NCBI GenBank assembly: GCA_037783545.1
Contig: JBBELK010000631.1
Span: 310,001 to 374,000 of the forward strand
Direction of reading: 5' to 3'
Length of the DNA: 64,000 bases
DNA from: Henricia sp. BOLD:AAB3569
Taxonomy: Eukaryota; Echinodermata; Asteroidea; Spinulosida; Echinasteridae
The notes beneath the pieces are model-generated. The model ran no database searches. It was not told the DNA's origin and worked only from the letters and a program-made list of their open reading frames with translations. A program made the position numbers and the translations under genes. Below are positions 32,917 through 62,100 of the stretch, piece after piece. Each line of letters begins with the position of its first letter. The first letter of the stretch is position 1.

Positions 32917-35059
32917 GACCTTACAAACCCGTGCTGATGGCCTTGTAGGGCTTCAGGTGCGGAATGCCGTGGGTGACCGGCCAGCAAGGGCCTTTTCAGG
33001 GGACAAAAACCTCCCAACAATGAGATAATAAAAAAAAAACCGTTAGGAGAAGACCACAAGAGTTGAAAGTGTTATGAATTCACGGACCTGCATGTCGCGT
33101 ATAGATCTGTGTCAATTTGAGCCGGGGACAGAACTGGCGCTGGTAAAACACTTTTCTATCACCCTGGCCCCTGCAGTTTTAATAAGCACGTGCTGGGGCT
33201 CTTGCTAAACTAATTTACGACCAGAATTCTTGGGATGACGACTGGAGACTCCAGAGACGAATGGAGAGTGCAGTTCCGTCTTCCCAGGCGCGTGTGCTGT
33301 GTTTCTGGGGACGCGATGGTGCACGTCTGAAGAAGACATCAAATTGTGGCCGGAAATCCGAGGTATTCGCAGTTTGTTCCGCACTTTGGTAGATAGACAT
33401 CACTCGATGATTGAGTATTTCGCCAACGATCAGGAACTGTGGACGACTTAAGGGCGGGGTGTGCCCAACTCAACTCAACTAAACATTTCCCCATGTCACT
33501 CATCCAGGCAGCGTTTAGTGCCGCTGTGGTACCATCTGGAATGTTAGAGCCCGTGTGTGTTCAAGTTTGATACTTTATTCATTGGTAGCAAGCATGTAGC
33601 CGGTACGTTTGGGAAATTCCGCTGTGCGATAATAATGACCGTTGGATATACACGTTCTACCTCTCCGTAATGGATATTATTGATCGTTTAGCGTGTTGGA
33701 CCATGGTACCAGATTTGGAGCGACCTCGGAGAAATACGGGTAGTAACATACGGGGAATACGGACCCAAGCGGTAGGTACGACTGTGGATTTAGCTATAGC
33801 TTTATGCCAACATGTCCTCAGATATAGACGCGGGCACAATTTCGCGTGATTTACTCGAACTGTCAGTTATAGGCATCTAGGGGAATAGAAACATTTCTAT
33901 AAATAAACATATTTGAGTGTGGTATTTTTGCAGTTGGTGTCGATGAGTACAGCAAACTTATTTTCAAGTTAGGATTTTGCTTGGGCGCTTGCCAGATAAT
34001 CAAAGGCATGTAGGCCTATTATCATCTTGATTCTGCTTTAAACAAGGAATATTTTAGAAGTTAGGTTCCAAACCTTGCTCTTCGTTGTTTTCACCACTGA
34101 TAATACAAGGTTCCTGTTATAACAAGGTAATCTGCTAAATCTAAAGAACCTCATATTAATAAATTTCAAATTGAAACTGGTAGCCTCGTTTCAGATGTTA
34201 AGCCATTGTATCTTATACGTTACACGTCTTTTCATTTGCAAATTTGTTCACAAAAGAAAGCACCGAGAACCTCGTTTTCGATGACAATTATTTGAAATTC
34301 CTCTATTTATGGGGCAAAACCTTTCCACGTTTTTAGAGACGGGCTGGTGTCGAGCTAGTCTTTTAAGTGCATTCCATGGTGCAATATTATTTCCCTAAGT
34401 AGGCAGAGAAATAACGTTCGTAGTAAATATAGCTCTCATTACATTCTTGTGCCTGTTTTAAAAATTCTCCCGATGCATAAAAGCGGACCCTCGCCATGAC
34501 ACGTCGTGGGGTGCACCGTGTATGCACCACCGTGCGTGCCATTTGTGTATATACTTCAACATTCTTTTCCCTTCCCCCATGTGTATACATCGGAAGGCAC
34601 GCGCTCATTTTTCGCGCGTGATTTTTTCCCCATAAATTGAGGGACCCTCCTCGACTGTTTGGGATTCCAGGTTTTGTGTCAGTGTCAGCCTTGACTTTGA
34701 ACTCTCCTGATCAATAGTATCGATGCAAATACCGCGATTGTAGACTATGACCTTTGACCTTGTTGATGACAGGCGCGTTCAGTGATGGATGACGATAAAG
34801 CGAAACGCCGAATATTGGAATGCCTCCCCGGATCGCTTGATTTAAACGTGTAAAAAAACAGCCAATAGAGCGTGCAACTTTCGCCATTTCACGCTTCGGT
34901 TTCAATCGCTCATGCGAACGTCTGGGTATCGAATACTAACTATTCTGTCGGCGGGCTTTTTGTTTTTTAAACAAGAAACGAAATTTAAAAATAGAAATTA
35001 ATTTTAAACAAAATTTTAAACAAAATTTCACAAATTAAATTTAAAAACATTATTTCTTG
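32917..35059. other. Unassigned region
   Basis: 33200-33850 has average GC and no repeat, but its frames are short and without homology. Confidence 0.45.
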
Positions 35060-38860: not shown

Positions 38861-39398
38861 AGTCCACTTGACTTTTGTGGTACATGACCCCTTGAACCAT
38901 TTTATTCCGCCGAGGGAGGTACTTTTCCCACGGGGAAGCTTTCAAAAGCAAAGTGGAGGTTTTAACACCTTCGGGAAAGTACGTGAATCGTCATCGACGT
39001 TTCTGGTCAAGTTAATCGAGCGAAGAGCATGTATCTGCCCACGGTCTTTCACTCAAACAGACAAGTACTTTCCCGGATGAATCTCGAAGGTACTCCGGTT
39101 TCTGGGTTACTGTCCGCCCTCAAAGCGTGGGTGCCTTTCGTGCCTTTAGTTAGGGGTGTTGTGCTTATATACTCCAGATTGGCTCTCTGCAAATGAAGCG
39201 TACGTGTCAAAAATTGCAATTAGCCACGAAAGCGCCTTGTAGGATTTGAGGTTCAACAGGTTCGTAATGGATGGCACACTTTCTATTGAGTGAAAGCATT
39301 CCAACAAACACGACCCTGAACGCTTCTCGACACTTGGTGGCAGCAGACAGCAATATCTGCACTTGCTAAATGCGTTTTCTGTTTTTTTTCTTCTGCAG

Positions 39399-40259
39399 GT
39401 GTGCTTACGACGCCTTCTGACTTTGGCGATCTTCTTATTACCATGGGCCGTCTGCCACGCAGCACCTTATACACCAACGGATTACAAAAACAACCGTTTG
39501 GGTAACGACACACTGACAGGGACAGTACCGCGTAAAAAGCATCACGGCAACTCGCACGTGGATCGGGGGTGCAAACACGAGCAGGGGACGGAGGGGAGCC
39601 ACCGGCACCACCACGGTAAGCACCGCTCCAATACACGCCACCGGAACAGGGACAATGAAGTAGTGCCGCTCAAATCTAACGACATCCTGAATGAGATACC
39701 CACCTATGTATCGGACTTGGTGGTGTTCTCACCGGTCAAACCGGCCAATCCTCCGTGGTCTCCGGAAGCCGTCATGGCGCGAGCAGACACCAATGAAGTG
39801 ACCGGGAGACATCATCGAGTCAGGCGGCGCACCACGGAGGGAGAGCCGTATCAAGCCGTCTGCGAGCCCGATCCCAAATGGGTCATCAAGACATGGGCTT
39901 ATGATCTCTTCGGTAACAACGTGACCGTAGTCAACGAGATTACCACATCAGACGGCACCCGAATGAAGCAATGGTTCTTTCAGACCACGTGTAAGAGAAC
40001 TCGGGATGGGCAGTCCAGCCCTCAACCCTGCGCGGGAATCGACACCAAGGTATACGAGTCGGAATGCGAAGAGAAGCGGTCCTTCGTGTACGCCGTGGTG
40101 CGCACGGAGCGGGGCGAGCAGGGCTGGAACTGGGTAACCATCACCACGTCATGTAACTGTGCTTTTCGGCCTGTTAGACCCACGTGGGGTAAAAGACACT
40201 ACGCCGCACACTCATCACTAGACACGCAGACGCAACCTACGATATCACGTGAACGATGA
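39399..40259 (+). CDS. Neurotrophin precursor (NGF/BDNF family), main coding exon
   Basis: Secreted growth factor precursor expected to signal through Trk and p75-type receptors. The exon follows a clean polypyrimidine tract and acceptor (AG ends at 39398), so the coding part starts at 39399 and the open frame before it is intron. It encodes 286 residues. Residues 1-21 are a hydrophobic signal-peptide core ending in CHA before APYT. The prodomain has an N-glycosylation site (NDT, 36-38) and a His-rich stretch near 68-75. A furin site RVRRR lies at 140-144. The mature part has six cysteines at 155, 198, 211, 223, 252 and 254; NGF spacing is 42, 9, 11, 27 and 1 residues, and here it is 42, 12, 11, 28 and 1. 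Family signatures QWFFQTTC, AGIDTKVYESEC and TSCNCAF align with NGF QYFFETKC, RGIDSKHWNSYC and TACVCVL. A tail of about 32 residues follows the last Cys. The initiator Met is in an upstream exon. Confidence 0.93.
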   Translation: MCLRRLLTLAIFLLPWAVCHAAPYTPTDYKNNRLGNDTLTGTVPRKKHHGNSHVDRGCKHEQGTEGSHRHHHGKHRSNTRHRNRDNEVVPLKSNDILNEIPTYVSDLVVFSPVKPANPPWSPEAVMARADTNEVTGRHHRVRRRTTEGEPYQAVCEPDPKWVIKTWAYDLFGNNVTVVNEITTSDGTRMKQWFFQTTCKRTRDGQSSPQPCAGIDTKVYESECEEKRSFVYAVVRTERGEQGWNWVTITTSCNCAFRPVRPTWGKRHYAAHSSLDTQTQPTISRER

Positions 40260-41164
40260 AGTCAAACAACTCAGAGTGTGGCGACATTGAAAGGAAGGTT
40301 TTTCTTCTTAACCGAATTAGATCCAAGAGACAGCTTGGGTTCTAGAGACTGCAGACTTTGTAGCAAGTGGTGAAACCGACGGATTGCGACATGAAGTAAA
40401 CTTGATTACTTCGCATAGCAGTTGCTTACTGAACAAAAGGCCAAACTGGCAAACATTTGGCAATCCAGTCTGTTTTGGCCCGTTCGTTTGGACAATACCC
40501 AGACGAAACTCTCCAACAAAAAAGGCGATTTCACTGCAGCACGTATACAGTGAACAGAATTCGGGTATACAGACAGACGAACAGTAAACGTATACGTGTA
40601 GCACGAGTGTTCTCTCGAATTATCAACCACATAAACTGCCTCAAACCATGTGGCTACTTGAATTATACAAGTACGTCAGTTCGCGCTCTCATTGAACACA
40701 GAATTTGCATCCGATTAAAATGAAATATACGTACAAAGAATTGTGAAGAAATACAAGAAACAATCGGCATTCCAAAAAATGTTGGTATGACGAGGCCTTA
40801 CTGACGCCGAAAGGAGGGAAAATTGAACCTAATTTTTTGATTATCGAAAAGATGAGAGTATAGGTTTTTGACTTGGGAGAAGCACTTTCGCCACTTACGT
40901 TGTGATGTATATATATTTCTTATAGGTACAAGCGAATGACGCAAGGCGACTCCTTAAGTACGATTGTGACGAAGTCTTTTCATTTTCAGGTGAATTGCTG
41001 ATGAAATTGCAGGTTTATGACGAAATGATGGGTTTGTTACAACCCCTTTTTAATGTTTGGAGCAGTGATGCAGTTTGTGATTGAGTAATTCTCTCTTCGA
41101 GACTAAAATAATTCGGTTAAAAAAACGTTATTTTCCTAAAATATCGATTCATGATCTTAATAAA
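40260..41164 (+). other. Neurotrophin 3' flank, probable 3' UTR
   Basis: Single-copy sequence after the stop at 40259. An ATTAAA at about 40714 could be a weak cleavage signal; no AATAAA was seen nearby. Confidence 0.4.
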
Positions 41165-41550
41165 ATTTTGTTGAACACTTATGGATAGGGCATTAATCAA
41201 ATAATCACTTTGGAATCACTTTCAACACTGTTTCTCGTCAGTGGTTTCCTTTAGGTCCAAGAGAACCTGTTTGAACAAAGTGATTCCGACAGTAATGTAA
41301 TGTGGGTTAGTCCTGCAGTTTAAAGGGTTCCCAGAAAACCAGAATTGGGTATTCAACCTGCATGGGATGAGCTGATGTCTAGATCCGTGTCTCCCCCAAA
41401 CAGCACTGGAAGTGCAGAAGTTCAGGGAGACAGTGGCACACCCTGCCTCAGCGGCTCTTTTGGAAGCTGATGCAGTTAGTCTTGCTACAAGAGGTGATCA
41501 TACACATGACTTACCGACAAAATGTTACGTCTCTCAGCCAGAGTATCTGT
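41165..41550 (-). repeat. Dispersed repeat H, minus copy downstream of the neurotrophin gene
   Basis: TTTAGGTCCAAGAGAACCTG, GCATGGGATGAGCTGATGTC, CACACCCTGCCTCAGCGGCT, CAAGAGGTGATCATACACAT. Confidence 0.8.
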
Positions 41551-41717
41551 TTCTTTTTTTAACCGTAAAAGGATCAAAGAGACAAAACTAACCTGCCAAC
41601 AAGTACAATTTTTATCTAAACGATCAATTTTTAAATGTATACACCAATCCTGTAACTAAGGTATCCTTCCCTGGCCCTGTACATCCGCCATAGCTTGGGG
41701 CTTCCACTGAATGAACT

Positions 41718-41958
41718 GGGGCCAATTTCATAAAGCAGTTAAGCAAAAAAAATTGCTTAATCAAAAATTTGTTTGCTTTATAAAATTGGGTTAATATTCA
41801 AAATTTTACGTCAACTTGTGTTTTTAGCAAGAATAGCAGATATTCTTGTGAAAAACGCATGTTGACATGCAATTTCGACTATTGACTCATTTTTATTAAG
41901 CAAACAAATTTTTGATTAAGCAATTTTTGTTGCTTAATTGCTTTATGAAATTGGCCCC
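41718..41958. mobile_element. GGGGCCAATTTCATAAAGC-type MITE, full copy
   Basis: 241 bp; inverted tips GGGGCCAATTTCATAAAGC / complement, continuing as AGCAAAAAAAATTGCTTAAT. The centre holds AGCAGATATTCTTGTGAAAA. Related pieces lie at 46240-46400, 50985-51070 and 51072-51256. Confidence 0.9.
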
Positions 41959-42657
41959 AGCTGAAGCTGCATTTGTTTACTTCAAACAAGTTGCGCGTCT
42001 TTGTAGGGTTGTGTGTACGCGAAGGCGGGCGCATTCGTGCATGTAATGGATGAGCGCTTTTCGTTCTAACAGCAACACAAAACGCGCAGCCCATGCACTG
42101 GACGCACCCCAGCTATATATGGCGGATATACAGGGAAGGAGACCTTAGTTACCGGATTGGTCTATTGATACAAAAGGTCGTCTTTTTAAATTTTTTTGAT
42201 ATATGAAGATAAGCACTGCATATCCTTTGAACTCGGAGAATCCGCTTATGAGAAGGAAGAATTACTCTTGTAACATGACAAGAAAAAAAGCAATCATAAT
42301 GGAAAGTTCACATTCCATTATGTGATTTATACACATAGCCTACCCAGGAGTTTAATAACGGATTCAGTTACACACATTTATAACTACTGGGTACAGGAAT
42401 TCTGCGTGGAAGGAATTCCATAGTAGGCCTATGCCCGTGGGACAAAAAAAAGAATTTTCAAGTAAAATTCTTACTTAACCATGCTAATGTTTATTACATC
42501 AAATATGTTTTTGGAGGTGGTTTAAAGGTCACATGTAATTGAGTTATGGGTTTGTGTCCGGTTACGGAATTGCAAACTTGTACATGGCCTTGAATGTTTA
42601 TTTACGAGTCAATGCTCAAAATATTAAATTGTCTAGGGCATATTTATCCTTGAATTG

Positions 42658-43446
42658 TATATGGAGGCACAGTGATCTAGTGGATAGTGCACTAAACGTT
42701 GGGGTGATACGTCCATGGTTCGAAGCCTGGTCACTATCGCGTTGTATCCTTAGACAAGACACTTTACTCCACATTGTCTCTCTCCACCCATGTGTATAAA
42801 TGGGTACCGGCAAATACATGTACTGGTTGGGAAAACCCAACCAACTGCTGGGGGTAAACCTGTGATGGACTGGCATCCCATCCAGGGGGAGTAGCAATGA
42901 TCCTAGTCACTCCATGGCATGGTAACTAACAACCTGTTGGGAAAACCCAACCAACTGCTGGGGGTAAACCTGCGATGGACTGGCATCCCATCCAGGGGGA
43001 GTAGCAATGATCCTAGTCACTCCATGGCATGGTAACTAACAACCTGTTGGGAAAACCCAACTAACTGCTGGGGGTAAACCTGCGATGGACTGGCATCCCA
43101 TCCAGGGGGAGTAGCAATGATCCTAGTCACTCCATGGCATGGTAACTAACAACCTGTTGGGAAAACCCAACTAACTGCTTGGGGTAAACCTGCGATGGAC
43201 TGGCATCCCATCCAGGGAGAGTAGCAATGCTCCGAGTCACTCCATGCCATGGAAACTAATGACCTGTTGGAGAAACCCAACCAACTGCTGGGGGTAAACC
43301 TGCGATGGACTGGCATCCCATCCAGGGAGAGTAGCAATGCTCCGAGTCACTCCATGCCATGGAAACTAACGACCTGTTGGGGAAACCCAACCAACTGCTG
43401 GGGGTAAACCTGCGATGGACCGGCATCCCATCCAGGGGGAGTAGCG
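42658..43446 (+). repeat. SINE with a 110-bp tandem array
   Basis: The head is GGAGGCACAGTGATCTAGTG plus a B-box-like CCATGGTTCGAAGCC (42661-42735), then ACAAGACACTTTACTCCACA. From 42823 a 110-bp unit (CCTGTTGGGAAAACCCAACC ... GTAACTAACAA) repeats about 5.6 times. The last units share GAGAGTAGCAATGCTCCGAG, so they arose by later duplication. Confidence 0.9.
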
Positions 43447-43974
43447 AATGTTGATGCGAATGGAAGGTTTTGCATTGCCCGAAAGGAATTTTATATCAGC
43501 AAGTGACTGTCAAATAGACAAATGGTGGAGAAAGATTGTCCTCATGTTGACGTTGATTTTTCCTGTTTGTCAATAAAAATTCCAAGTTTAATTGTTGAAA
43601 TTTGAAATGTAGATTATATAATATTTAATATTGTAATTCAAATCTGGTACTATTGATTTACATATTTCAGTAACTTATCTACCGTAAAAAGATGTAAATT
43701 TTGTGCATTTATTGTATGCTAGACACCATTATTTGCTGTAGTCGACAATCGATATTTTTATGCTGTAAATATCTTAAGACGCGCCTCACGTATCATTATT
43801 TATTGATGTATATAAATTTGACAAAGTATCATATTTTATATCCTCGACTCAAAATACGCAAACAGATATCTCCAGAAATCATTTTTTAAAACATGGGTAT
43901 TACACGGGACTAAAATAATAACTCTTTGTTTGATACTTTAGTTTGCTATTTTTATTGTTTATATTTCCAGCACT

Positions 43975-44690
43975 CGGTGTAAAACAGCTCATAGAGAAAT
44001 TTTGATGAGGACCACATGATTTTTCTCTTATTCCTCGTTTGTATGTTTCACTTCCAAGGTGATCAGGCACCATACCAAACGTCGCATTCGTTACTTTGCT
44101 CAGTTTTACAACCATGTGACATCAAAAGAAAGTATAACACTGTGCCTCATAGCACAGCTGGAAGAGCACCTGCCCAGTGTGTCAGAGGTCTTGGGGGAAA
44201 CCTGAGGAAGTATACAACTATGCCTCATAGCTCAGTTGGTAGAGCATCTGCCCAGTGTAAGGATGAGAATTTACGGTTAATTCAGACACCGGTTTGCAAT
44301 TCTTTCAAGTGTCAGTTAACCGGTTAACCGTTCAGCCGACACTAAAGATTGTTGCTGGTGTTTATATCTATATCTATATATGTGCGATGTACACAATACC
44401 TCTAGGCCCCCAAAATAATCGTTGAACCTTTATCTGGTCAATTTTATTACGACCCCATATTTATTTATTTCAATTTCACGAAGTCATTACAAATAACCCC
44501 CTGAAAACTATTGTAAATTTTTTGAAATTGCGTGTCGTTTAAACGTTCGGCACAACCACTTTTTCGGTTAAACGGTTAAACGTCCCATCCCTAGCCTGGT
44601 GTGCTACGGCAGCCACAGGTTTCGAGTTTGAAACACGATGAAGACCACATGATTTTTCTTTTTCCCACATTTGGTTATTTCATTTCCACA
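43975..44690 (+). mobile_element. Tandem tRNA-like repeat units with a nested MITE
   Basis: After a SINE tail piece (TTTTTCTCTTATTCCTCGTT, GGTGATCAGGCACCATACC), two tRNA-like 5' halves start near 44139 and 44219 (TGCCTCATAGCTCAGTTGGT AGAGC). The second is split by the insertion at 44258-44593 and resumes with a diverged T arm (GTTTCGAGTTTGAAAC) and a tail. Confidence 0.75.
44258..44593. mobile_element. TAGGGATG-tipped MITE nested in a tRNA-derived repeat
   Basis: 336 bp with tips TAAGGATGAGAATTTACGG and complement of CGTTTAACGTCCCATCCCTA. Flanks GCCCAGTG and GCCTGGTG look like an 8-bp duplication with two changes, which fits the hAT group. It interrupts the anticodon region of a tRNA-like repeat. 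Confidence 0.75.
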
Positions 44691-45634
44691 TAAAATATCA
44701 TGTTAGAGAAACTAACAGGGGTTTGCGAGTTATTACTTGCATAATTTATGTAGGTACGTTACATGTAACTCTGTATCAGAACTCAATATATTGTGCAAAC
44801 AAGATAGCCAAAATAAAACAAATTTGAAGATATTTGCCGATTTCTTTTTGGTGTCCCGTTGTTGTGGTCCTTAAAATGAGTATTAAGATGTTCAAATATG
44901 AATGGTATGGTCGTGGCACCTTTCATTAGTTCAGTATAATTTGACCACTAGCTTATTTGAGTTGAATTTGTCTTTTTTCAGATACGGAGCCCATTTTGGA
45001 GATGGGTCTGTCCACACTAAAGAGCACACTTTTGTTCAAAAGTAGATAAAAACTATAAAGTTGTTTATGGTAATTTCTTCATTACATTCTGAGTACATAT
45101 CAGGCCATGTAAGAATTGCGTCTATTCTCTAGTTTTCATTTTACAGTTTCAAAAATTACAGCAATATCGTCTGCAAAAAGTAGTGTACTTGGCTTGGGAA
45201 GTCGTCTATGGTGATTGACTCATACTTGTTTGTCACAAAGACAGAACATTGTCCCAAAATATCTGTCCAGTGACATACGTGACTTATTTGGCACTGTAAA
45301 TGAGTCTTTCCACGGTAAAGGGCGCATTTTGACAACACGGACCATATTTTCCAGAAAGTACCTTTGTCTGGTTTCAAAATAAAATAAATAAGTTTCAGTT
45401 GTTCTGAAGAGATAACTTAGGCCCAAAAAGGGTTACAAATAGTGTGACAACATGCCTTTCTAAAAACCCTTTGTACAAATTTCCAATATACGCTCGTAAC
45501 TGGGACGGCCTAAAATGTAACAAGTATCCGTGTGACATCTTTGCCGCTTAATTTTATACTATATAATAGGGCAATATTCCACAGTATTTTTTATCAAAAT
45601 AGGGATAACCAAATTGCAAATAGTATCCAAATTG
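44691..45634 (-). other. CARF 3' flank, probable 3' UTR
   Basis: Single-copy, A/T-rich, next to the CARF stop. On the - strand AATAAA-like hexamers occur near 45386. The convergent neurotrophin 3' end is 5.4 kb away. Confidence 0.4.
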
Positions 45635-46129
45635 TTATACCTCATATCTTGGGCGTTTCACAAGTGGTGAATCTTCCTGCATATCGTTCAATTCACCTGT
45701 TGCTCTCAATAACAAATCCCTTGCCTCCAAAGCTTCAGACGGCCCCAAGTCCACCTCAGAAGGGGTCAGCTCTTCACTTTCATGCAACAAGGATCCTGAT
45801 TGGTCCATTGCAGATGGATCCGAGTCTAACAGATGTTTTGATTGGTCCATACTAGTTACTGATGCAGTGTCGTGTAACAAGCCTTCTGATTCGCTCAGAT
45901 TTGTGTCAGCAGTATCTAACAAGCTCTCTGATTGGTTGTTTCCGTCATCAGAGGAAGTATCAGTGAGTCCAATCATGGCACGCGATTGGCTGAGAGTTGG
46001 GTCATTCTTTTCAGAGTCAATGATCCCCTCGTCTGATTGGCTGAGCCCGGGTGTCATGGATTTTGGATCTTCTAACAGGCTCTGTGATTGGTCCAATTCT
46101 TCTGACTCACTTGGTGCTGCTCCTTGCAC
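45635..46129 (-). CDS. CARF: CARF last coding exon, acidic Ser-rich tail with DQS-LL repeats
   Basis: Acceptor TGTTTAG; stop TAA at 45637-45635. Its 164 residues hold about seven degenerate repeats of the type DQSxSLLxD ([45 protein letters not shown]), then KRPRYEV. The composition suggests an activation domain. It has no close human counterpart, so its function is inferred. Confidence 0.88.
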   Translation of the reverse strand: MQGAAPSESEELDQSQSLLEDPKSMTPGLSQSDEGIIDSEKNDPTLSQSRAMIGLTDTSSDDGNNQSESLLDTADTNLSESEGLLHDTASVTSMDQSKHLLDSDPSAMDQSGSLLHESEELTPSEVDLGPSEALEARDLLLRATGELNDMQEDSPLVKRPRYEV

Positions 46130-49100
46130 CTAAACACACACAATTAAAGGAGCTTGTTTAGATTTGTTTTCCCCAGAAAATGGATTTCGATATAACTCAT
46201 AAAATACCTCCCTAGAATACTATCCATTAGGAACGTTTCTAAATGGGCTTTATGAAATTGGACCCTGGTCAATTTCCTTTAAAGGTTTTGTGAAATTTTA
46301 TGAAAATTAACACCCGAGTGAAACCAATTTCATGGAGCTGTTTAGCAGCTGATTTTGTGCTAACGGAGGCTCCAGCTATTTCATGGAGACCGAAATTGTA
46401 AGCACCACAAAACATTTGTTAACTACGGGGGAAAAACTTCTTGAAGAGAGTAATGCAATCTCCATTTCTCAGCACGCCGTGCTTAAATATCGTCAGTGAA
46501 CGGGTTTAGTGGACGGTTCTGTGGAAACACGCCGATAGAGTCTCTTTATACACACCTCTTGGCAATGCTGGTTAATCTGTGAGATTAGCCGTGCCGTTTC
46601 CGGAGTCAAAGAGTCACTGATGACCATTGTGCCATCGCTCAAGTGTGTCTCCACCTGAGAAATGATACTACCACCCTCTGGAAATAGAAGAGCAAAGAGA
46701 AAGTTGGACCATTTTCAACAGTTTTATAACGATGGAAAAGACAAACACAGCAAATTAATTTGACTTTTTACACTTTCAGAATAAACAACTTCTCAGTCTT
46801 AAATTGCTACTTGCTCTTTCTTCAAGTTCTTACGATATTCAGAAGTGGAGTTACTATTCACTGAATCTGGCCATGTCCCATTATACAAATGTGAGAGATC
46901 CGAGTTTAAAGTTACAGGATAGACATCAGGGTTGTCGTCGAGTCCATTACAAGTCTTTACAAGCCTTCACAAGTCCCTGGTTAATTCAAGTCACGAGCTA
47001 TTCAAATGAACTCCAACAAAGGCATTAGTTTGTGCGTGTTCATCCTTTGCTTCTTGTCACTGTACTTGTGCAGGACTTGTCACAGACTTGTGATAGACTC
47101 GACTACAACCCCAATAGACATAAATCTCATAATCCCTATATCAGACATAAATCTCATACAACCACTATGTTCCATAAAGCTACAATCACTCAATTTAATT
47201 TATAAAGAGGTCGTCCAAAGTTGTCATCATTTTCAGAGTTGTACAGAGCGTAGTATTTTCTAAGACCTCTCTCCCACCCCCTGAAATACTACTTATCAAT
47301 ATTTTAGTCATTACCGTGAAATGTCAACATTTTACAGTTTTCTAAAGTATTATTACCTCTATGTGGCTGAAATTTCTACAAGGCAGTTTATCAATAGAGC
47401 TTCTGCACCGGCGGCCATGACAGTGGGCAGGTTTTCTTATGTAAATGATGTAACAATAGAACCACAAAGCACCTACTCATGCATGACGCACGGTGACAAT
47501 GTGACTGCCCCCTGTCATGGCCGCCGTGCAAAGGCTCTATACAGGCTTTTAACCACTTGACGCCGGAGGACGTGTAAACACGCCAAGATTTCCACATCGG
47601 TGTAGCGGAGGACTAGTAAACACGTTTAGGGGAAATTCATTTGTTAACTGCGTTTGACGTCTACACTCGCAGTAATTTTTGAGGGAAATGGCCAAAACAG
47701 TTCATAACTAAGCTTCATTAGGGTTTACAATGGAGTGCATTGTCATAACAACAATACTTCACTGTACATGGTTAATAAGTTCAGTTGTTATCCGCCCTCC
47801 GTGGTTCAACTAAAATCAATAATCCCGGCGTTAACTGATTAATCACGAGTGGAAAAAAATTCCCTTTGTAACAGTTTACCAATCATGTACTCTACCTTTG
47901 AGATTATGGTAAACATACCTTCTGGATTAGGAGTGAAGGTGACCGTAACTGAGCGTGGTTGTGGCCGGCCGGAATCTGCTGACCACAGCTGACGCTTAGC
48001 GGATTCTTGCTTCATAACACCATCCTGGTCATCTGTAAGCATAAAGGTCATCACTGTTAGAGTCAGCTGCTGTACAAACCTATGGCAAAGAGATGAGCAA
48101 CGCAATTTGTCCGCGATAATGTGAACGCGACACCGGAGGAAGTGTAAACATGTTTTGGTAATGTATAGTCACAGAGACAGTTTACTTGGAGAGTTGCAAA
48201 GTATGGTCTTTTGGTGGAAAGATTCATACAACGTAGAAATGACTCTCAAGAATCAGTATTTGTGGTCTTAATAAAGGCACAGGCTCGTCAGCAATGCCTT
48301 TGCTATGGAGCACGAATTTGGCGCATGCGCATTGCTGACGAGCCTGTACCTTTAACTTTTGGCAGGTCATATTTGCCTTTTTTTTAAATGGTATTTTGTT
48401 GTGCTAAAAATAATCCGGGCATCAACTGGTTAACAGATTTCTTTGTACATGTACCTTCAGAGCCCTGTGTTAATGTGACCGTGACTGACTGCGTCTGTGG
48501 TGTATCTGATCCTGTTGGCCACATTTGATGCACAGACGATGCTGGTTTTAACTTGTTGCTTTCCGGTTCGTCCGGTGAATCCCATAGCGGTTGGCCAAAA
48601 GTCTGCCTTTGAGTATAGGCGATGGAAGCCGGTGGGGGGTCGGTAATGGCTCGAGCATCGGAAATCTGAAAACATGAAAGAATGTCTTTTGGAGCTTTTC
48701 ATTTTGAAACATCCAAATTTAAACCGAAATATCGGGGATGCTGAGAGATTATTTTACTAGAAGCAATCGGCATTAAGCATCGACAAACACTTTTTTGCGG
48801 ATGTGTTGGGCAATACCTTTAAAGGAGCGTGACCAGATCACATTTTTGAGCTCCCCCATTTTTCCCATGGGTGTTGAGATTTTGATACCATATCATGTCA
48901 TATTTTTCTCATTAACATTTTATTTTGTGCTCTCATTATGTATTTTCCAGGATATCATTAAAAAACACCGGTGTTTTGTAAACTAATTTTTCCGTGCAGT
49001 GCAGTGATTACACCAAGCTGTACGACGCGCACCACAGAGTGCATGACACAAGCCACAGAGTAGGCGACCGACTGCGAACGAATATCTGAAACACCCAGCC

Positions 49101-52100
49101 AAGACCAGTAAAACGCATATATGGATTTTCATGTTTTTAGAAGACGTGGTACATTTGACAGAGCTAAATTTCTTCTTCTTTCGTTTGATTCCCAGAATCG
49201 CTCAAAAACAGATCATCTATAGGGCCTTTAACTTGTTGTTGCGCACATTAGGAAATAACCGTTTAAAAATGTCGGGAAACATGCACACAACCGCCAAAAA
49301 ATGTCGGGAGAGGTGGCATTCTTAAAAGTATATACATGTACGTGATTTGCAACACCTCATGAATGTAAACGAACCACCAACCGAAACTGATTTACAGAAA
49401 TCTGCGCACAAAAAACTTTTAACAAACATCAAACTGAAACAAACTTACCGTGATTGGAACAACAGCCTCTAGTTCTCCTTTCTCAATGGCACTAATAGCG
49501 AGTAAGACGTGGTTTTTGATGTCGTTGATCGTTGGGAAGTAGTACAGGTTGTGACGTTCGGGGGCATTCTCACCAGCAAACATTCTACAGACTACATGAT
49601 TCCTGGTGCAGGAGAGAAATCAAACAATGATAAATGAAAGATTTTATAAAGGCTAACTAGTCTTTACAGTTACAAATTTTCCGCATTGTCGTAAACACAG
49701 ACGGATAAAAAGGAATTACAGAATGTTATCAAATATATCTCGGGCAAAACACAAATTCTATTAAATTTAAAACAACAGAATTTAGCAACAAAATAAAACA
49801 GAAAATGTTGTTTGTTTTCTCCCATCTCAATGCTTGCTGGATGATGTAAGCATTTATCTCGTTTTCACTTGTCGGATGATGTAAGCATTGATCGCATTTT
49901 TGCTAACCTCAATGCTTGTCAGATGATGTAAGCCTTTATCTCCTTTTTGCTTACCTCATATTGTTTTCGCTTACTCCAACACTTACCGAACGATGTAAGC
50001 ATTTATCTCATTTTTATTTACCTCAACTCTTGCCGGATGAAGTAAGCATTTATTTCGTTTTTGCCGACACTTCAATGCTTACTAGATAATGTAAGCATTT
50101 ATCTCATTTTGCTAAGCTCAATGCTTGCCGGATGATGCAAACATTTATCTAATTTTGCTAAGCTCAACGCTTACCAGATGATGTAAGCATTTATCTCATT
50201 TTTGCCAACCTCAAGGATTGCCGGATGAGGGAAGCATTTATCTCATTTTCGCTTACCTCAACTATTGCCGAATGATGTAAGCAAGTATCTCATTTTCTCT
50301 TACCTCAATGACTGCCGGATGAGGTAAGCATTTATCTAATTTTCGCTTACCTCAACGCTTGCCGGATGATGTAAGCACTTCTCTCATTTTTGCTTACATC
50401 AAAGCTTACCGAATGATGTAAGCATTTATCTTATTTTCGCTTACTGGATGATGTAAGCATTTATCTCATTTCGCTTACCTTAATGATTGCCGAATCAAGT
50501 AAGCATTTATCTCTCCATTAGCCACCAGTTCCCTGATCTTTTCACACAGTTCTGGATGTAGTCTAGACTTGGAATCTGATCCCATCATAACTGGATCTGG
50601 GCTAATCTGATATTCAGGGGTCGTGTGGTATTGGTGTGCTTGGTTGGTTGGTAGCTGAACGTAATACCTGTGTAAATCACCGTGAAGATTATTATCACTT
50701 CCAGATAAATAATTTATCCTTAAAAGTGAAAAGTTGATTACTTATTCAGATGCACACACAATACACAACAGCAGCAAATATCACAAGAAACGTCTCTGCC
50801 CACAGACGTAGACGGAAAATCTAAAAATCCGAGCCTGAAGCCGGATGCAGTGATTTTGAAAACAGCCTATATCATGCACATGTCAGTTTGTAAGAACTGG
50901 TACATTTGGGTTGGCTTCCAAAATTGTAAGTGATGTGTATTGAAAGGTATTCTCCTACTCTTGTGAAGAACACAAGTTGGCGTATAATTTTGGCTTGTAA
51001 TCCATTTTATAAAGCAAATAAATCCTGTGCTAAGCAAGTTTTTGTGCTAAGCAGCGCCATGAAATTGGCCTGAAATTTCATAAAGCTGTTTAGCAAAAAA
51101 ATTTGCTTAATCAAAACTGTATGTCAACTTGTGTTTTTAGCAGGAATAGCAGATATTCTTGTGAAAAACACAAATTGACATGCAATTTAGACTATTGACC
51201 CATTTTTATAAAGCCATCAAATTTTTTCTGCTAAACAGCTTTTTGAAATTGGCCCCTGGTGGCTATCTGGGCCGCCAGCCTTCGTTATCTTGATTAAGAT
51301 TATACATGTACACACTGACCTTTCAACACCAGCGATTGAATCCACTCCTACTTCCTTCATCATCTGAAACACATGATCCATGGTCTTTTTAACCATTATC
51401 TTGTCCGCTTCGGGTGAAATATCCACTTTGAAGTCTGGGAACTTCTTTACTTTCTTCAGATAAATCCTACAAAATCAGTACAACATCAGGCAATTATGTA
51501 ACATAAATACCAAATCTTTGAACGTGACTCGCTTATCAAAGGCACAGGCTCGTCAGCAATGCGCGCACGCCAGATTCGTGTTACGAAATACAGCTTTATG
51601 CCTTTGCTATGGAGCTGCGTATTTCGTGGCACGAATTTGGCCCGCGCGCATTGCTGACGAGCCTGTGCCTTTAATGTGTGAAAGAGTCATTGTGAATCCT
51701 CTATTACCTAGCAGGGCAGGTACACGATCCTTTGGCTGGTTTCCTGTTTTTATCCGACCTTTTGTTAGGACCGCCTTTCCGACGTGGTCCATACTGACAT
51801 TCCATGACTGCAGCTCGACTCCCTGAACACAAACAACCAAAAAACCAGAACTCTAACAAAAAATCTTATAAAAAGATACTTCTTAGGCAGAATCATTGCA
51901 TCCTCCTTTTGAGTATGGGGTTTTCCCGGTCAAATGGATCATTAAAATTTTGGGACAGTGCACAGTACACTGGCTTTAAGCGTAATTTAAAATACAACTT
52001 ACCAATATTGAGAAATGGTATCCCATCATAAGGCACATAATTAGACTTCCACATGAGTCGTTTGGACTCGCGGGCAGGGGTGGGTGACTGTCTGGTTCCC

Positions 52101-55100
52101 CACGTCGTTCCTGTTTGTTGTCTATGGTAGGTGAGCAAGAGTTCCAGCTCGGTCTCAGTCTCCACGTAGCCTCTGTACGAGTTGCCAATCTCCTGGAAAA
52201 AAACAACATGAAACTGAATAATTTATACGACAAGTTTTGGGCTAACTACAGATGGTAAAAATTCTTGTGCTTAGTTTTGCACACTTGATGCATTTGGATT
52301 CAATTGATGCAATTACTTTTACTGAAGCCATAGTTCATTTTATTCAATATTGCGATTATTTACAAAAAAATATTATCGCAATTTGTGAAAGGACAAGACA
52401 TTCCAATGACAGTGCAAGGCTCGAAATAATTTTTTTTCAGGCTGGAGCAGTTTTGCTAATCATTGGTTTCATTTGAATAGCAATTCTGGAAATTGAGGAG
52501 CACTTATTTCGTACTAGAAATACGGTGTGATTGGCAGACAGAGCCCGCCCGGCAGGCTTGACGCGAGACGGCCGCCGCCGGCCGGTCATTGCCGGTCATT
52601 GCCGGTAGTTACCGGTAGTTGGTAACCATTCCACACGAAATATTCTCATTTCTCAAATACATTTTGGCACATTATCAATGGGAGTTGACGATATTTTCCA
52701 TAAAAATGACGATCAAGCAAAACACGGTCGCTGTGATGCATGAAAAAAAACGATCACAAAAATTACGATCGACAACCCAGCTATCTACATGTACCATGCG
52801 GTGTGGTTGAAACCCGAAAGTATAATTTGTTTGTGACCGTGTAGTACATGCTACAACCTACCTCCGGCTTGTTATTTTAATACCACGTAGCTCCGGAGCC
52901 ACCGTCAACGCACGAACTACACGTTAGCAACAAAATCTACCTACCATGTGTACGTACGTGCAGGGGATTTCACGTGCAGGGAATTCCCCGTCAGAGTAAG
53001 AGGCCAACTCGTGTTGTAAAACGCATGCTGATTGGCTGATAAAAATAATATGACCGGCTTCTAGTAAATTCTGGCCAATGACGTTCAAGTTAACTGACAA
53101 AACGGTGATCGGCATGAGTTGGACTGGTTACCGCCCCACTAAAGCCGGGAATATTATGGTCCGGAAACCAGACTAGGCACGTTCCGGCGCGCGCCCGGGT
53201 CTGTCGAACGTAAGCCCATCGTTTGTTTTAAATACAGCCTTTGTAGATTTTTAACTTGAAATGTGAGGGAAGGGCAACCTTTTGTGCATTTATTTTGTTG
53301 CATTTAGTTTTGTAGCATGTACTGTACATGATGTATGCTGGTGGTGGAAACAATTCTGGACTAAACTTGTGCTAAAAAGTTGATTCGCAGTTTTGCTAGG
53401 CAATCAAAGTTTATGGTTCGCAAACTGCTGTTTTTGCATCGCAAACTGCGATGCGATACCGCTTATTTCGAGCACTGCAGTGGATAAAATATTTTTTTTA
53501 AATTTTAATTCATGAGTAAGGTCATGTGAAATGTAAGCTTTTGTTTATGTTGAGTAAACATCAATCAAAAGGTCGTGTTGTCAAAGGAAATGCTAGTTGT
53601 TGTGTTGTTGATTATTCATAGCTTTGAATCTGAACTCGTAGCTTAGCCTAAAGTGGGATACCATGGCAGAGTGGTTTGGGTCGCTGGCTCGGGTGAAGAC
53701 TTGGGGTTGCGGGTTCGGTGCCGGAATGGGGTACCTATGCTCTTGAGCAAGGCACTTAAACACGCTTGCTTCGGAAGGGATGTAAAACTGTTGGTCCAGT
53801 GTGTTGTGTCACGCACTTAAAAGATCCCAGAGCATTATTTCCTGAAGAGTTAGGGGATTCCACCCCCATTCCCCCATCCCACCTCCCCTGAGCGACCTCG
53901 CCAAGGCCCGGCAGCCGTTGGCTAAATTTGGTCACACCCCCCAAATCAAAATGGTCTAGCTACGCCATTGCGTGTTTGTAAAATGACCGGCCTACCTCAC
54001 AATCTTTCAGCCTGGTTGCCCAAATCGGACAGTTTGGTGGAACCTCCCTCACTTCCACCTCCCTAGCTCCTAGTTGAGACTCAATTTCCCCCGAGTCTGA
54101 GAGAGTTTCTCCCTCCCCGGCAGCGTTTATAACATCCAGCTGGTCCCCTGAAACGCTCACTGTTTGGGCAGAGTCTAGACAAAAGGGAAACATGGGACAG
54201 TAGAAATGAATAAGTCTGACATTCTACAGCCATCAAAAATGTACACAAATACCAATGGCAACAGTGGTACATGTATTAAACAAAAATGTGAATACATATA
54301 AACAATTTACCTGTTTACAAGCTTGTAAACCAATCACATGCTTCTTAGATGTATTTATAACTGGATAATTACCACTTTCTATAGCTATTTATAACAAGCA
54401 CTTGCAGAATGTTATCGAAAGAAGGACACAACTCCAACTCGTTAAGACATGTACCATTTTCATGGAAACATCATATACATTTTACATTATAGACTGCCGA
54501 AGTGAGTACGTCATCTTTTGTTGGTTGCCTAGGTAATTGGCTCTAAACAAAAAATCACTGAACTGTGTCCCTGTGCTTTTGCAATGATACTTTTTCGTTT
54601 AAAGCCAATTGCTATGGCGACCCACGTCACACTTCGGCTGTCTATTGAAATAATTTATTTTCAAGTTTTTTTAACAGGTAAAACCAGCTTGTGCTATCTA
54701 TTTAAAGGCACAGGCTCGTCAGCAATGCACGCGCACCAAATTCGTGCCACGAACTACGCAGCTCTATGCCTTTGCTAATGCTATGGAGCTGCGTATTTCG
54801 TGGCATGAATTTGGCGCGCGCGCATTGCTGACGAGCTTGTACCTTTAACTTAAAACAATGACCGTTTGTCACACAATCACATAAAAACCTTATATAAAAG
54901 TCTTTTGGCCCGACACTTCCACCAACCATGGTTGGCAAAAAGCAACAGGTCTACAAGCCTTTGTAAATAGAATGTGATTCTTCATAAATATGGAATGTGA
55001 AAAGTATTGCTAGTGGTTTTTTAAGCATTTCTTTTTTAAATTTGTTTTGCCAACTTACCATCACTCTCTTCATGCGTGTCTGTGGCCGGTTCGTCAATGA

Positions 55101-55919
55101 CAAAATGTACAACTGAGTTCACTTTGTCGGAAGCATCACCGTTCAATGAAATCTCAATCATATCATCGGAGTCTGAAACCCACGAAGAACTCTTGACAAT
55201 CTCCAGAGGAAACACAGGCTGAAAGAAATACCAGAGAAAGTGGTTCTTTTAATTTTTTCCCAAAATGCACTAATGGCAGGAATACTATACTCTTCCAAAA
55301 AATAAACATAATTTTCATAAAATATTAATTCTTGATCAGAACAGAAGTCTTCGGGGATTTAGCCCAGGTCTAAGTTGCCATGTTTGAACCAAATGAGTCC
55401 CACAACAATGGAATGTGTCACTTCCTGTTTCTGGGGGAATAGTGTATTTTACGGGGTAAAAATTGAAAAGTTGATATTCAATATTTTGTTTTAAATGACT
55501 TATTAAGCATCAATAAGTGCAAATAAAAAATCTTAGAAAACACCTAGAACATTTTTAGCCAGTCTCGTGTTTCGTGCAAAAGGTCTGCAGTTATGATAAA
55601 CTTCTCAATTTTCTGGCATCTTATACATACTTACTTTTCCGCTAGCACTAGCCACTGCCTTGCGCCTCAATCCTTTTGGCACACCTTTTCTCTTATGGCT
55701 CGTCTTCGAGTTGATGAAAGGCATCTTTTCTCCTGCTTCTAACCCTGCAGTTGGTAAGGCCTCATTTTCAGACAGGACGTCATTTCTTGGGATGACCTCA
55801 TCTGTGACCTTCGACTTTGGGTCAGCCTTGTCAGTTGAGAGGGCGGTGTTCGTTTGGTTTTCATCCCCATCGGTGAGATTGAAAATCTTTGTAGATGTAC
55901 TTGGTTCATCCATGCCTAT
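45635..55919 (-). CDS. CARF: Calcium-responsive transcription factor (CaRF), whole gene span
   Basis: Nuclear DNA-binding factor of the ALS2CR8 family; the mammalian protein binds CaRE1 in a BDNF promoter. Twelve exons, all with GT-AG borders and matching phases, give 784 residues from ATG at 55913 (human about 725). They are 55635-55919, 55059-55218, 53996-54174, 52003-52192, 51708-51822, 51320-51466, 50479-50667, 49449-49602, 48455-48665, 47919-48032, 46556-46677 and 45635-46129. The conserved core (about residues 195-460) reads [84 protein letters not shown] and [18 protein letters not shown], all close to human CARF. C278, C303/C305, H368 and H371 could chelate zinc (inference). The C-terminus is acidic and Ser-rich and ends in KRPRYEV. 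Confidence 0.93.
46238..46400. mobile_element. Degraded GGGGCCAATTTCATAAAGC-type MITE
   Basis: Carries GGGCTTTATGAAATTGGACC and CAATTTCATGGAGCTGTTTA, but the centre has diverged. Lies in the last CARF intron. Confidence 0.6.
46556..46677 (-). CDS. CARF: CARF exon, [13 protein letters not shown] block
   Basis: Acceptor ATTTCCAG, donor GTGTGT; phase 1 to 0. [17 protein letters not shown]... aligns with human GESITTKVETNQTRGS. Residues 580-620. Confidence 0.88.
46929..47112. mobile_element. GGGTTGTAGTCGAGTC-type MITE in a CARF intron
   Basis: 184 bp with inverted tips GGGTTGTCGTCGAGTCCATT / complement of GTGATAGACTCGACTACAAC. A longer relative lies at 36212-36400 and a stub at 32062-32098. Confidence 0.85.
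47395..47539. mobile_element. TAGAGCC-type MITE, copy in a CARF intron
   Basis: Same length (145 bp) as the copy at 26557 but inverted. Both copies sit directly beside a fragment of the same dispersed A/T-rich repeat (see 26330 and 47320). Confidence 0.88.
47919..48032 (-). CDS. CARF: CARF exon, second W...VTVT module
   Basis: Acceptor GCTTACAG, donor GTATGT; phase 1 to 1. Reads [20 protein letters not shown], a second copy of the W-x-(4)-G...SVTVT module. Human CARF shows one such module, so this may be an exon duplication in this lineage. Confidence 0.88.
48273..48354. mobile_element. AAAGGCAC-type palindromic MITE, short copy in a CARF intron
   Basis: Only 82 bp: outer arms AAAGGCACAGGCTCGTCAGC / complement are kept, but most of the inner arms on the left are deleted. 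It lies between two CARF exons. Confidence 0.88.
48455..48665 (-). CDS. CARF: CARF exon, first W...VTVT module
   Basis: Acceptor GTTTTCAG, donor GTACAT; phase 0 to 1. Residues 472-541 end in [20 protein letters not shown], related to human LQWTTDSG...MTVTFAEG. The next exon repeats the same module. Confidence 0.88.
48820..49025 (+). mobile_element. AAAGGAGCGTGACCAG-family element, 3' truncated, in a CARF intron
   Basis: Starts TTAAAGGAGCGTGACCAGAT and runs to GTGCAGTGATTACACCAAGC, where similarity to the full copy stops. Confidence 0.8.
49449..49602 (-). CDS. CARF: CARF exon, PERHN / [10 protein letters not shown] block
   Basis: Acceptor TGCACCAG and donor GTAAGT; phase 2 to 0. [20 protein letters not shown] matches human [20 protein letters not shown]. 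The exon ends at AVVPIT. Confidence 0.95.
49828..50478. repeat. About 47-bp minisatellite built from a CARF exon end and its splice donor
   Basis: About 14 diverged units fill most of the CARF intron 49603-50478 and abut the real donor. Read on the - strand, a typical unit is GAGATAAATGCTTAC, then ATCATCCGGCAAGC, then ATTGAGGTAAGC. That encodes [11 protein letters not shown] plus AG/GTAAGC, the same as the real exon end [11 protein letters not shown] plus AG/GTAAGC. At least five units keep a consensus donor. The array plainly grew from the exon-intron border. Confidence 0.92.
50479..50667 (-). CDS. CARF: CARF exon whose 3' end seeds an intronic tandem array
   Basis: Acceptor TTACACAG; donor AG/GTAAGC at 50479/50478; phase 2 to 2. 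Encodes [14 protein letters not shown] (human WYVQLPTQQAHQYH) and ends in [11 protein letters not shown] plus a split Arg codon. The last 35 bp with the donor are repeated about 14 times in the next intron. Confidence 0.95.
51066..51256. mobile_element. GGGGCCAATTTCATAAAGC-type MITE in a CARF intron
   Basis: A shorter copy with tips ATTTCATAAAGCTGTTTAGC / complement and the same centre (AGCAGATATTCTTGTGAAAA). Directly upstream (50985-51065) is another partial copy, so two insertions abut. Confidence 0.87.
51320..51466 (-). CDS. CARF: CARF exon, [10 protein letters not shown] block
   Basis: Phase 2 to 2; acceptor TTTTGTAG, donor GTCAGT. Residues 309-356 open with [14 protein letters not shown], matching human IYIKKVQKFPEYRV, followed by a Met-rich helix. 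Confidence 0.93.
51538..51673. mobile_element. AAAGGCAC-type palindromic MITE in a CARF intron
   Basis: A full copy with arms AAAGGCACAGGCTCGTCAGC / complement and the central AGCTGCGTATTTCGTGGCAC. It ends 35 bp from the splice donor at 51708. Confidence 0.9.
51708..51822 (-). CDS. CARF: CARF exon with zinc-ligand-like cysteines
   Basis: Phase 1 to 2; acceptor TGTTCAG, donor GTAATA. In the phase set by its neighbours it reads [17 protein letters not shown] ... KGSCTCPAR, matching human [17 protein letters not shown] ... CPAR. A longer open frame over the same bases is not the real one. A palindromic MITE begins 35 bp beyond the donor. Confidence 0.93.
52003..52192 (-). CDS. CARF: CARF exon, most conserved block
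   Basis: Acceptor TTCCAG and donor GTAAGT; phase 0 to 1. Residues 207-269 contain [29 protein letters not shown] and [18 protein letters not shown], near-identical to human CARF. This exon alone identifies the gene. Confidence 0.96.
53650..53960 (+). mobile_element. tRNA-headed SINE in a CARF intron
   Basis: CCATGGCAGAGTGGTTTGGG head, GGGTTGCGGGTTCGGTGCCG B box, GAGCAAGGCACTTAAACACG body, TTGGTCCAGTGTGTTGTGTC. Same family as 2725-3095. The 3' end is C-rich and lacks the usual tail. Confidence 0.82.
53996..54174 (-). CDS. CARF: CARF exon, start of the conserved DNA-binding region
   Basis: Acceptor TGTCTAG and donor GTAGGC. Residues 147-206 end in [13 protein letters not shown], matching human NTPIWACRLRSCE. 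This fixes the frame and the phase-0 end. Confidence 0.9.
54703..54846. mobile_element. AAAGGCAC-type palindromic MITE in a CARF intron
   Basis: A full copy, 144 bp, between the exons at 53996-54174 and 55059-55218. Three of the five family copies in the window lie in CARF introns. Confidence 0.9.
55059..55218 (-). CDS. CARF: CARF exon, acidic linker 1
   Basis: Acceptor TTTCAG and donor GTAAGT; starts in phase 0 and ends in phase 1. Encodes residues 94-146, including the acidic stretches [10 protein letters not shown] and [12 protein letters not shown]. Not conserved enough to align, but frame and phase fit both neighbours. Confidence 0.8.
55635..55919 (-). CDS. CARF: CARF exon with N-terminal region
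   Basis: Acceptor TGGCAG before 55919 and donor GTAAGT after 55635; phase 0 to 0. Encodes residues 1-93 from ATG 55913, a low-complexity polar region with a basic patch [15 protein letters not shown] that could serve in nuclear import. There is little similarity to human CARF here, as expected for its divergent N-terminus. Confidence 0.8.
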
Positions 55920-55992
55920 CTGCCAGATAAGGTGGAAAATTAAACAACTGTACGTACTTTTTTTTTTAACAGTCTGAATTACTGCAGGATAA

Positions 55993-59106: not shown

Positions 59107-62100
59107 CTGTAATAAAAAAAAGAAAAGGAAAATGATTAGTAAGCAAATGTCCCAGAAAAAAATGCTCTTAGCATAAACAGGTCTCCGGCTAATATCTCAT
59201 GCAATCTCTATCACTTTTGATTGATATTCAATCAAAGGACCTTGGGTAATTTCTGCAGGTCGTGGGTTCGATTCCAGGCCGGCCTGCGTCCGTGGTGTTC
59301 ATGACCTTAAACAAGGCACTTTGCCATAAATTGTCTCTCTCCACCCAGGAGAAAATTAGTACCTGTGGGGGTAGTGAATGTGTTGTGTGATTAGCTCATG
59401 AGTGCCTACCAGGCACCTGGGGCTGTCTACTCCCCAGGGAGCCGAGATGGTTGAATTAAGGAATGTTATCAAGAGCGCAATGACCAGGGGTAATAATATA
59501 ACTCGTACCTGCTGTGGAGTGATGCTCTTGACCACGTTTTCTTCGATCCAGCGTACCATGTGACTCTGCTCCAAACGTTTCTGCATATTGTCCATTTCCA
59601 CTTGGTAATCCTGTCATGAAAGCATACATATAAAGTTTTTAGTTTCTGAAAATAGGGGCCGTCCAAAGTTGTCAACATTTTCAGTTCTACAGAGAGTTGT
59701 ATTTTTCAAGACCCCCTCCCTCCCCCTGAAATACTACTAAACAATTTTATGGTAGTACATGTACCATGAAATGTCAACATTGTACAGTGCAAGTCCTATG
59801 TGGCCCTCGACCCCCTCCCCACTCTTTGTAGAACCGTCAAAATGTTGACAACCTTCATGAGAATCAGAGAGTCTTGTTTTCAACATCGGCAGCCCAATTA
59901 TTGTGCTGCGCCATATTTGAAAGTTTGAAAAGGATGACGATGTCAACCATGCAACGATTGCATGGATGACGTCAAGATTGATGCCTTGTTTCCCGACTCC
60001 CACACGCCATGAAATATGTAAAAATCTGTTGTGTCCTGACTCACGCCCTCTCAAGTCCGGGCGCCAAACTGAAAAAGATGGCGACTCACATGAAGCGTAC
60101 AGAGATAGGCAAACCTTTGCAAGTGTTGTCCCTTCCTTTAACCGATAATGCAGTGGAATGTTTCTTCACTAAAGCCCCAGTCTTGTTAGAGATTGAGAAA
60201 TTGGAAACACTCCTCCCTGTTTTTGGCTGCAAGAGAAAGAGTCTGAACCACTGTGAAATCATGTCATATGATGTGATGCTGTCATTTTTATCGTGTGACT
60301 TACCAGTCTCTTTTTGACCTCTTCACCGACATTCTTCAGCCGATCCCGGTACTCAATTTCCAACTGCATGTCAACATTTTCCTGAATAAACAACAAATAA
60401 ATTGCATTTTTTACAATTCAAACGTTTCTCCAAAGGAAAATATTATAAACAGGGTAATCGACCTACACAGATGTTCTACACACATGTTCTACTTCTTTGG
60501 GTTTCCCCAAGATCTCTGACACACCAGGCAGATGCTCTACCAGCCGAGTTAAGAGGCACAGTGGTCTACTCCTCAGGTTTCCCCAAGACCGCTGACACAC
60601 CGGGCAGATGCTCTACCAGCCGAGTTATGAGGCACAGTGGTATACTCCGTCAGGTTTTCCCCAAGACCTCTGGCACACCAGGCAAATGCTCTACCAGCCG
60701 AGTTAAGAGGCACAGTGGTCTACTCCTCAGGTTTCCCCAAGACTACTGACACACCGGGCAGATGCTCTACCAGCTGAGATATGAGGCACAGTGGTATACT
60801 CCGTCAGGTTTTCCCCAAGACCTCTGGCACACCAGGCAAATGCTCTACCAGCTGAGCTATGAGGCACAGTGGTATATTTCCTCAGGTTTTCCCCCAAGAC
60901 CTCTGACACACCGGGCAGACGCTCTACCAGCTGAGTTATGAGGCACAGTGGTGTACTCCCTCAGGTTTCCAACTTTGAACCGTCGTTAAAGGGGAAAGCG
61001 GAGTGCAACTTTACGCTATTTCGTTGTGACAGGTCACATACGTATTATGGGTTGCATGACTCACTTTCCTGGCCTCAAAGAGATAATTGCGTCCGTCCAG
61101 CCTCCACTGTTCTTTCTTCTCAGCTGCTATGGCATCGGTGAAGATTTGTATGCCTTCTGCTTTGCAGGCGTTGCCTTCTTCTAATTGCTCCTGCATATCA
61201 TGGATGAGAAACATGTAAACAAATTGAAGGAGGTTGAAGGAGCGTGTCCAGATCACATTTTTGACTACCCCATTTTTATCATGGGTATTGAGATTTGTCA
61301 TATCATTTGTCATATTTTTCTCATTACTATTCTGAAATTTCGCGTTCTCAATCCGTATATTTTCAAGGATATCGTCAAAAAACCTAGCCTGCGCGACTTA
61401 TACCACCTTTTTCTAGAGCGATCACATATCAGTGTTTTGCATCAGATTTTTCAAATTTTACTGCCAATTTTTTTCTTAGAAAATGGAATAAAATCCGAAA
61501 AGAATCGCGATTTTTGAAGGCCTAATATATGATTTGCAAGAAATTTGTTTTCTATATTTCTGGATTATAAGAGAATAACATATATAAGGAAGAGTGTTGG
61601 TAAACTAGCCAGCAGAAACGTCAGCTACATAAATGCGGGAATGCTTAAAAAAAAATTCAAAATCCATGCATTTTTTTCCCCGTTAAGTGAGAGTTAAAAA
61701 ATGTGTGCACACACTTTTGAAAATGAAACACCTTTAGTTGTTAATTTATTACAAAAAGTATCATCTTAAAAAGAAATAAGCATGTTGTGTTTGTTCACCG
61801 TTGCTATCAACACTCTGAGTAAGGTTTTTCTTGTCAACTCATGAAGTAACATTTTTGGTCATTGCAAATGATGTAATGGCCTTTAAGTTGAATCGAAATT
61901 GATTTCTTCTACAAACCTGTATCTTTCTGTCTGCATAATCTGCAACAACAGGCCCAAACCACTTGACAGCAAACACCAGCAAACCAATGGCCACTACACC
62001 ATGGACTGTCTCTGGTCCTAACACGTAGATTTCCTTGTTGAGAAGGTACATGACGAGACCGAGGCCATAAACATAGGGCCCTGGCGATAAAATAAAAAAA

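Follow-up and report, generated by a model that had tools for sequence, protein, structure and literature searches.

In the sea star Henricia sp. BOLD:AAB3569, a neurotrophin gene and the gene of the transcription factor CaRF (family ALS2CR8) are direct neighbours, and most likely they ended up side by side by accident. The window, that is the whole stretch of DNA analysed here, comprises 64,000 nucleotides (bases 310001-374000 of contig C631, JBBELK010000631.1, 561,561 bp) of an assembly of 740.7 Mb in 2,104 contigs, in which both haplotypes were kept. An earlier note had described CaRF as lying directly beside a neurotrophin gene, convergent with it and 5.4 kb away. Both identities were confirmed, and neurotrophin (+) and CaRF (-) were found tail-to-tail, with 5,375 bp from stop codon to stop codon. 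In the explanation that we favour, with a probability of about 0.7, the two genes would be intact, ordinary orthologues that are adjacent without cis coupling. Their adjacency would then be passive gene order, which either arose when one lineage was rearranged or is an ordinary linkage that has been retained. Among the matches listed in the literature searched, we found no report of this gene pair.

The second haplotype is represented by contig C1074, which is collinear with the whole window (27 blocks of more than 300 bp with indels, identical at 87-99%) and on which both genes are arranged in this same way; three further hits in this comparison were repeats elsewhere. Both coding regions are open, that of the neurotrophin as far as it goes without a located 5' exon, and there is little protein change between the haplotypes.

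The neurotrophin precursor coding exon, of the NT type, occupies positions 39399-40259 (+). The open frame to which it belongs (39294-40256, +) matches the Pfam family NGF (PF00243) with an expectation value (E) of 3.7e-24 and 85.5 bits, against a cut-off of 27. Its best relatives with solved structures are neurotrophin-4 (E 6.4e-18) and neurotrophin-3 (E 9.3e-18), after which venom NGF, BDNF and NGF are ranked. Reading the translation by eye, we recognised a signal-peptide-like stretch, a pro-region, the basic cleavage site RVRRR ahead of the mature part, a mature cystine-knot domain with all six knot cysteines (aligned to neurotrophin-4) and the stop codon, in this order. An AG acceptor at 39397-39398, just 5' of the exon, accounts for the start at 39399 given in the earlier note. 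Since the frame holds this acceptor and no initiator methionine ahead of the signal-like stretch, the start codon is placed in an upstream exon, which was looked for and not located. The haplotypes differ at one synonymous position in the 861 bp of the exon. The product is predicted to be secreted and to act as a Trk/p75-type ligand. When viral contigs were scanned once with this neurotrophin, no relative was confirmed.

The canonical deuterostome neurotrophin, Sp-NT of the sea urchin (PMC2772990), likewise has a cystine knot, and a single large exon encodes both its pro-region and its mature domain; in this respect the window gene fits the sea urchin NT. It differs in that its initiator methionine is apparently in a separate upstream exon. 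A second neurotrophin-like gene exists in two near-identical copies, C218:1360343-1360558 and C99:3114913-3115131, which may be alleles. It has an extra cysteine beside the fifth knot cysteine, a motif that fits the sea urchin Sp-NT2 (PMC2772990). Unlike the window neurotrophin, this NT2-like gene is not a neighbour of CaRF: none of the 10 ALS2CR8 matches listed falls on either of its contigs.

The CaRF model consists of 12 coding exons running from 55913 to 45635 (-), with a length of 2,355 nt, one terminal stop and a product of 784 amino acids. Between the ATG (55913) and the stop codon (45635) the frame stays open throughout, and 11 of 11 introns are GT-AG. Exons were placed by tblastn with a provisional human CARF sequence, together with splice phase. 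This was the basis for exon 3 (53996-54174), exon 4 (52003-52192), which forms the core of the DNA-binding domain and is 68% identical to the provisional human protein over 65 amino acids, exon 5 (51708-51822) and exon 8 (49449-49602), which holds a conserved second region. Exon 7 (50479-50667) matches Pfam ALS2CR8 at E 9.1e-9, and exon 6 (51320-51466) at E 3.9e-4, which is below the curated cut-off when taken alone. The similarity to human is weak in the remaining exons, for which the main evidence is the open frame, together with splice sites and phase: exon 1 from the ATG, with its donor (55635-55913), exon 2 (55059-55218), exon 9 (48455-48665), exon 10 (47919-48032), exon 11 (46556-46677) and exon 12, with one splice site and the stop codon (45635-46129). 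Another, non-coding 5' exon may precede exon 1, given the AG acceptor at 55920-55921. One CaRF intron contains a minisatellite with a 47-bp unit (49868-50512) that resembles the last bases of exon 7 and its splice donor; its units give weak tblastn matches to residues ~405-420, and the second haplotype has a shorter version of this region.

The 784-residue product matches the ALS2CR8 profile over positions 3-228 of 235 (E 4.5e-52, 177.7 bits) and is 38% identical to the provisional human CARF in an alignment of 467 columns (E 3e-92 against that single sequence). Between haplotypes, CaRF shows 43 synonymous and 11 non-synonymous differences, with a ratio of non-synonymous to synonymous rates (dN/dS) of 0.07 when two gapped codons are excluded. 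Domain order is identical to that of vertebrate CARF and the conserved second region is common to both, whereas the N- and C-terminal parts align poorly and 12 coding exons were found here against 14 in human (PMC2877716). Is this the CaRF orthologue, or a distant member of its family? The genome contains at least 10 listed ALS2CR8 matches: two on C631, two on C1074, one on C674, two on C245, one on C139 and two on C209, one of the latter being under the cut-off. The four on C631 and C1074 are the window CaRF and its allele. Of the ALS2CR8 loci compared, the window gene is also the best match to the provisional human CARF, with 89 bits for one exon and 67-68% identity over 57-65 amino acids, while the others are distant and reach at most 39 bits (23% identity, C674). 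Judged against the provisional human protein, the window gene appears to be the orthologue and not a distant relative, and it is predicted to encode a nuclear DNA-binding factor. The genome counts of ALS2CR8 and neurotrophin matches are lower bounds.

Between the two genes lies a convergent intergenic gap of 5,375 bp (40260-45634), in which open reading frames, Pfam, Rfam and repeats were checked. None of the 15 open reading frames of at least 70 amino acids inside the gap, nor one that overlaps its right edge, had a Pfam match at E 0.01, and Rfam gave nothing above the gathering score in the whole window. The gap contains a tandem array of 5.7 copies of a 110-bp unit (42826-43450), apparently shorter in the other haplotype. 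Because neurotrophin and CaRF converge, they share no promoter, and a bidirectional promoter is excluded. CaRF's own promoter would be separated from the neurotrophin coding exon by over 15 kb.

One alternative is that the linkage is old and passive: the genes would already have been near each other in the ancestor of ambulacrarians or of deuterostomes and have stayed together for no functional reason, until vertebrates separated them. We regard this as unlikely. The adjacency in both haplotypes speaks for it, and so does ATP5PB, a homologue of which is the next gene on the right of the window pair, and which lies near NGF in human (1p13.2, NGF being at 1p13), so that part of the neighbourhood may be old. 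Against it, two further neighbours have their human orthologues at 6p21 (RPL10A) and 9q34 (GRIN1), so the local order has been scrambled. CaRF, which here adjoins the neurotrophin gene and in human is placed at 2q33, looks like the odd one out on these positions; which lineage moved it cannot be read from them. Families whose vertebrate members are neighbours of CARF or NGF (ICA69, NLE/WDR12-like and Strabismus) were found on C256, C1058 and C496/C138, respectively, and none on C631 or C1074; this absence is weak evidence because the contigs are short. The choice that the earlier note had posed, between chance and an old linkage, is not decided by adjacency in one species.

A more ambitious alternative is functional cis linkage. 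CaRF would bind and regulate the neighbouring neurotrophin gene, and selection would keep the pair in one chromatin domain, perhaps together with a GluN1-like gene that lies on the same contig. We consider this quite improbable. Its starting point is that in mammals CaRF was isolated through the element CaRE1 of Bdnf; it binds this element of promoter IV in vitro and, when overexpressed, activates the promoter (PMC2877716). However, according to the same paper, no CaRF peak was seen at Bdnf promoter IV in mouse neurons by chromatin immunoprecipitation and sequencing, for which the authors allow a false negative. CaRF activity further responds to L-type channels and not to N-methyl-D-aspartate (NMDA) receptors, and its regulation differs from that of CaRE1 (PMC3235121). 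Besides, a factor that acts in trans needs no linkage to its target.

In the window itself, CaRF-binding motifs were counted against 100 shuffles of the window. The motifs were those defined for mouse and human CaRF (PMC2877716). The chCaRE motif was found twice, where the shuffles gave 1.32 on average and 35 of 100 had at least two, and cCaRE with at most two mismatches 39 times against 36.6 (38 of 100 shuffles). A relaxed core of the CaRF motif occurs 14 times against 9.4, a number reached in 9 of 100 shuffles, and only two of the 14 sites are no more than 10 kb away from the neurotrophin exon. The counts are near chance, and with three patterns in the window no enrichment of CaRF sites was found at the neurotrophin neighbour, whose promoter itself is unlocated.

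A pair of CaRF-like motifs (34183-34280, -; sites at 34183 and 34269), which precedes the neurotrophin exon by about 5 kb, seemed to favour functional linkage. It is the only such pair in the 201,662 bp of sequence examined, and independence predicts 0.008 in the window, with thresholds that were chosen after the pair had been seen. A genome-wide pattern scan returned 103 places, including several tandem arrays and many places with one shared sequence between the sites. This count shows nothing by itself, because a control with the backwards pattern gave 666 places. In a DNA search, all 40 of the scored candidates (of 2,032 from a first look) matched: apart from the window and its allele, these were 38 more copies with 86-91% identity. 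The pair was therefore discounted as part of a dispersed repeat. The repeat is about 100 bp long (34180-34285 in the window), and many of its copies carry two CaRF-like sites (AAACGAGGY).

Only a very slender chance is given to the still broader idea that the arrangement is that of the ancestral deuterostome, with a neurotrophin and its calcium-dependent activator in one chromatin domain, which vertebrates scattered after genome duplication while keeping the CaRF-to-BDNF relation in trans. Finally, a wrong join of neurotrophin and CaRF in a fragmented assembly that keeps both haplotypes, an option that the earlier note had raised against the pair, can be ruled out for practical purposes, since C1074 differs by several percent and by many indels and yet has the same gene order across the whole window, so that only an identical error in both haplotypes would save it.

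We thus return to the reading of two ordinary orthologues that adjoin without cis coupling. Several observations weigh against it. The count for the relaxed core of the CaRF motif is on the high side, with the highest excess of the three patterns. Carf knockout mice reportedly have reduced cortical BDNF, and together with the isolation of CaRF through Bdnf CaRE1 this makes a regulatory tie in vertebrates conceivable. The GluN1-like gene, also neuronal and calcium-linked, is located on C1074 some 38 kb past the start of CaRF. As an argument, the chance that two named genes are adjacent would be about 1 in 10,000, given two neighbours and an assumed 24,000 genes. The pair was, however, picked afterwards from thousands of adjacent pairs and many claimed relations, so that some such regulator-target pair is expected in any genome. 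The proposal of a regulator beside its target gained no support from the motif counts, the repeat-borne pair, the orientation or the second neurotrophin gene.

Should ambulacrarians and amphioxus turn out to share the pair, a transcription factor would have been physically joined to its claimed target since before the vertebrates, which is rare, and CaRF-to-neurotrophin regulation could be tested in a genome that has not been duplicated. For the present, the analysis provides gene models for the sea star neurotrophin and CaRF.

The next gene on the right encodes a mitochondrial ATP synthase subunit b (ATP5PB-like, 59359-63375, -). Two of its exons match Pfam PF05405 (E 1.2e-8 and 3.2e-6), and it also matches a solved ATP synthase subunit b (E 9e-14). 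Its outer bounds are those of open reading frames, and the N-terminal exon (63088-63375) was read by eye. On the left, ribosomal protein L10a is encoded at about C631:294-296 kb, and no gene was recognised by eye between it and the neurotrophin among open reading frames of at least 70-75 amino acids. Beyond the window, C1074 carries an immunoglobulin-domain gene, two long open reading frames without family assignment and the GluN1-like NMDA receptor gene (C1074:40001-50000 at 4818-8881, +). Neurotrophin, CaRF and this receptor subunit all fall within about 60 kb. Their clustering is probably a coincidence. GluN1 lends the stretch a neuronal flavour, while the genes next to the pair, for an ATP synthase subunit and a ribosomal protein, are housekeeping in kind. 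The two long frames (L019 2911-5007, -, and L034 7887-9722, -; 699 and 612 amino acids) contain the repeated basic motifs ERARRYRERKRE / ERNRIRAREGMRRHRE and have no Pfam match.

The distant ALS2CR8 loci show some features of their own. In C674:205001-215000, an open frame of 783 amino acids (5843-8191, +) combines ALS2CR8 (E 1.6e-16) with a ZSWIM1/3-type RNase-H-like region (E 8.2e-8) and a SWIM zinc finger (E 3.3e-5), and at C209:492419-496762 (-) ALS2CR8 matches lie about 3 kb from a match to the RNase-H region. Because ALS2CR8 is joined to RNase-H-like and SWIM domains in one protein, the domain composition suggests a transposase-type protein as the origin of the CaRF DNA-binding domain. 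The plant factors FAR1/FHY3 are likewise transposase-derived (PMC13306707), and CaRF has been described as unlike any known transcription factor family (PMC2877716). Among the matches listed in the literature searched, no link between ALS2CR8 and transposases was found; two of the matching papers offer no more than a table entry on LINE1 and cancer and a proteomics table.

The assembly also contains mitochondrial DNA, whose genetic code and transfer RNA order indicate that the animal is probably a sea star. Contig C955 has at least three head-to-tail mitochondrial copies, at 7592, 23813 and 40034 with a spacing of 16,221 bp, and is probably an assembly concatemer; a further copy is at C2104:6427. 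The cox1 frame is open under genetic codes 5, 9 and 24, and only code 9 gives asparagine in FSTNHKDIG, the usual cox1 form, which fits an echinoderm. Upstream of cox1, transfer RNA genes for Leu(-), Gly(-), Tyr(-), Leu(-), Asn(-) and Gln(+) were found, which is the inverted arrangement of sea stars.

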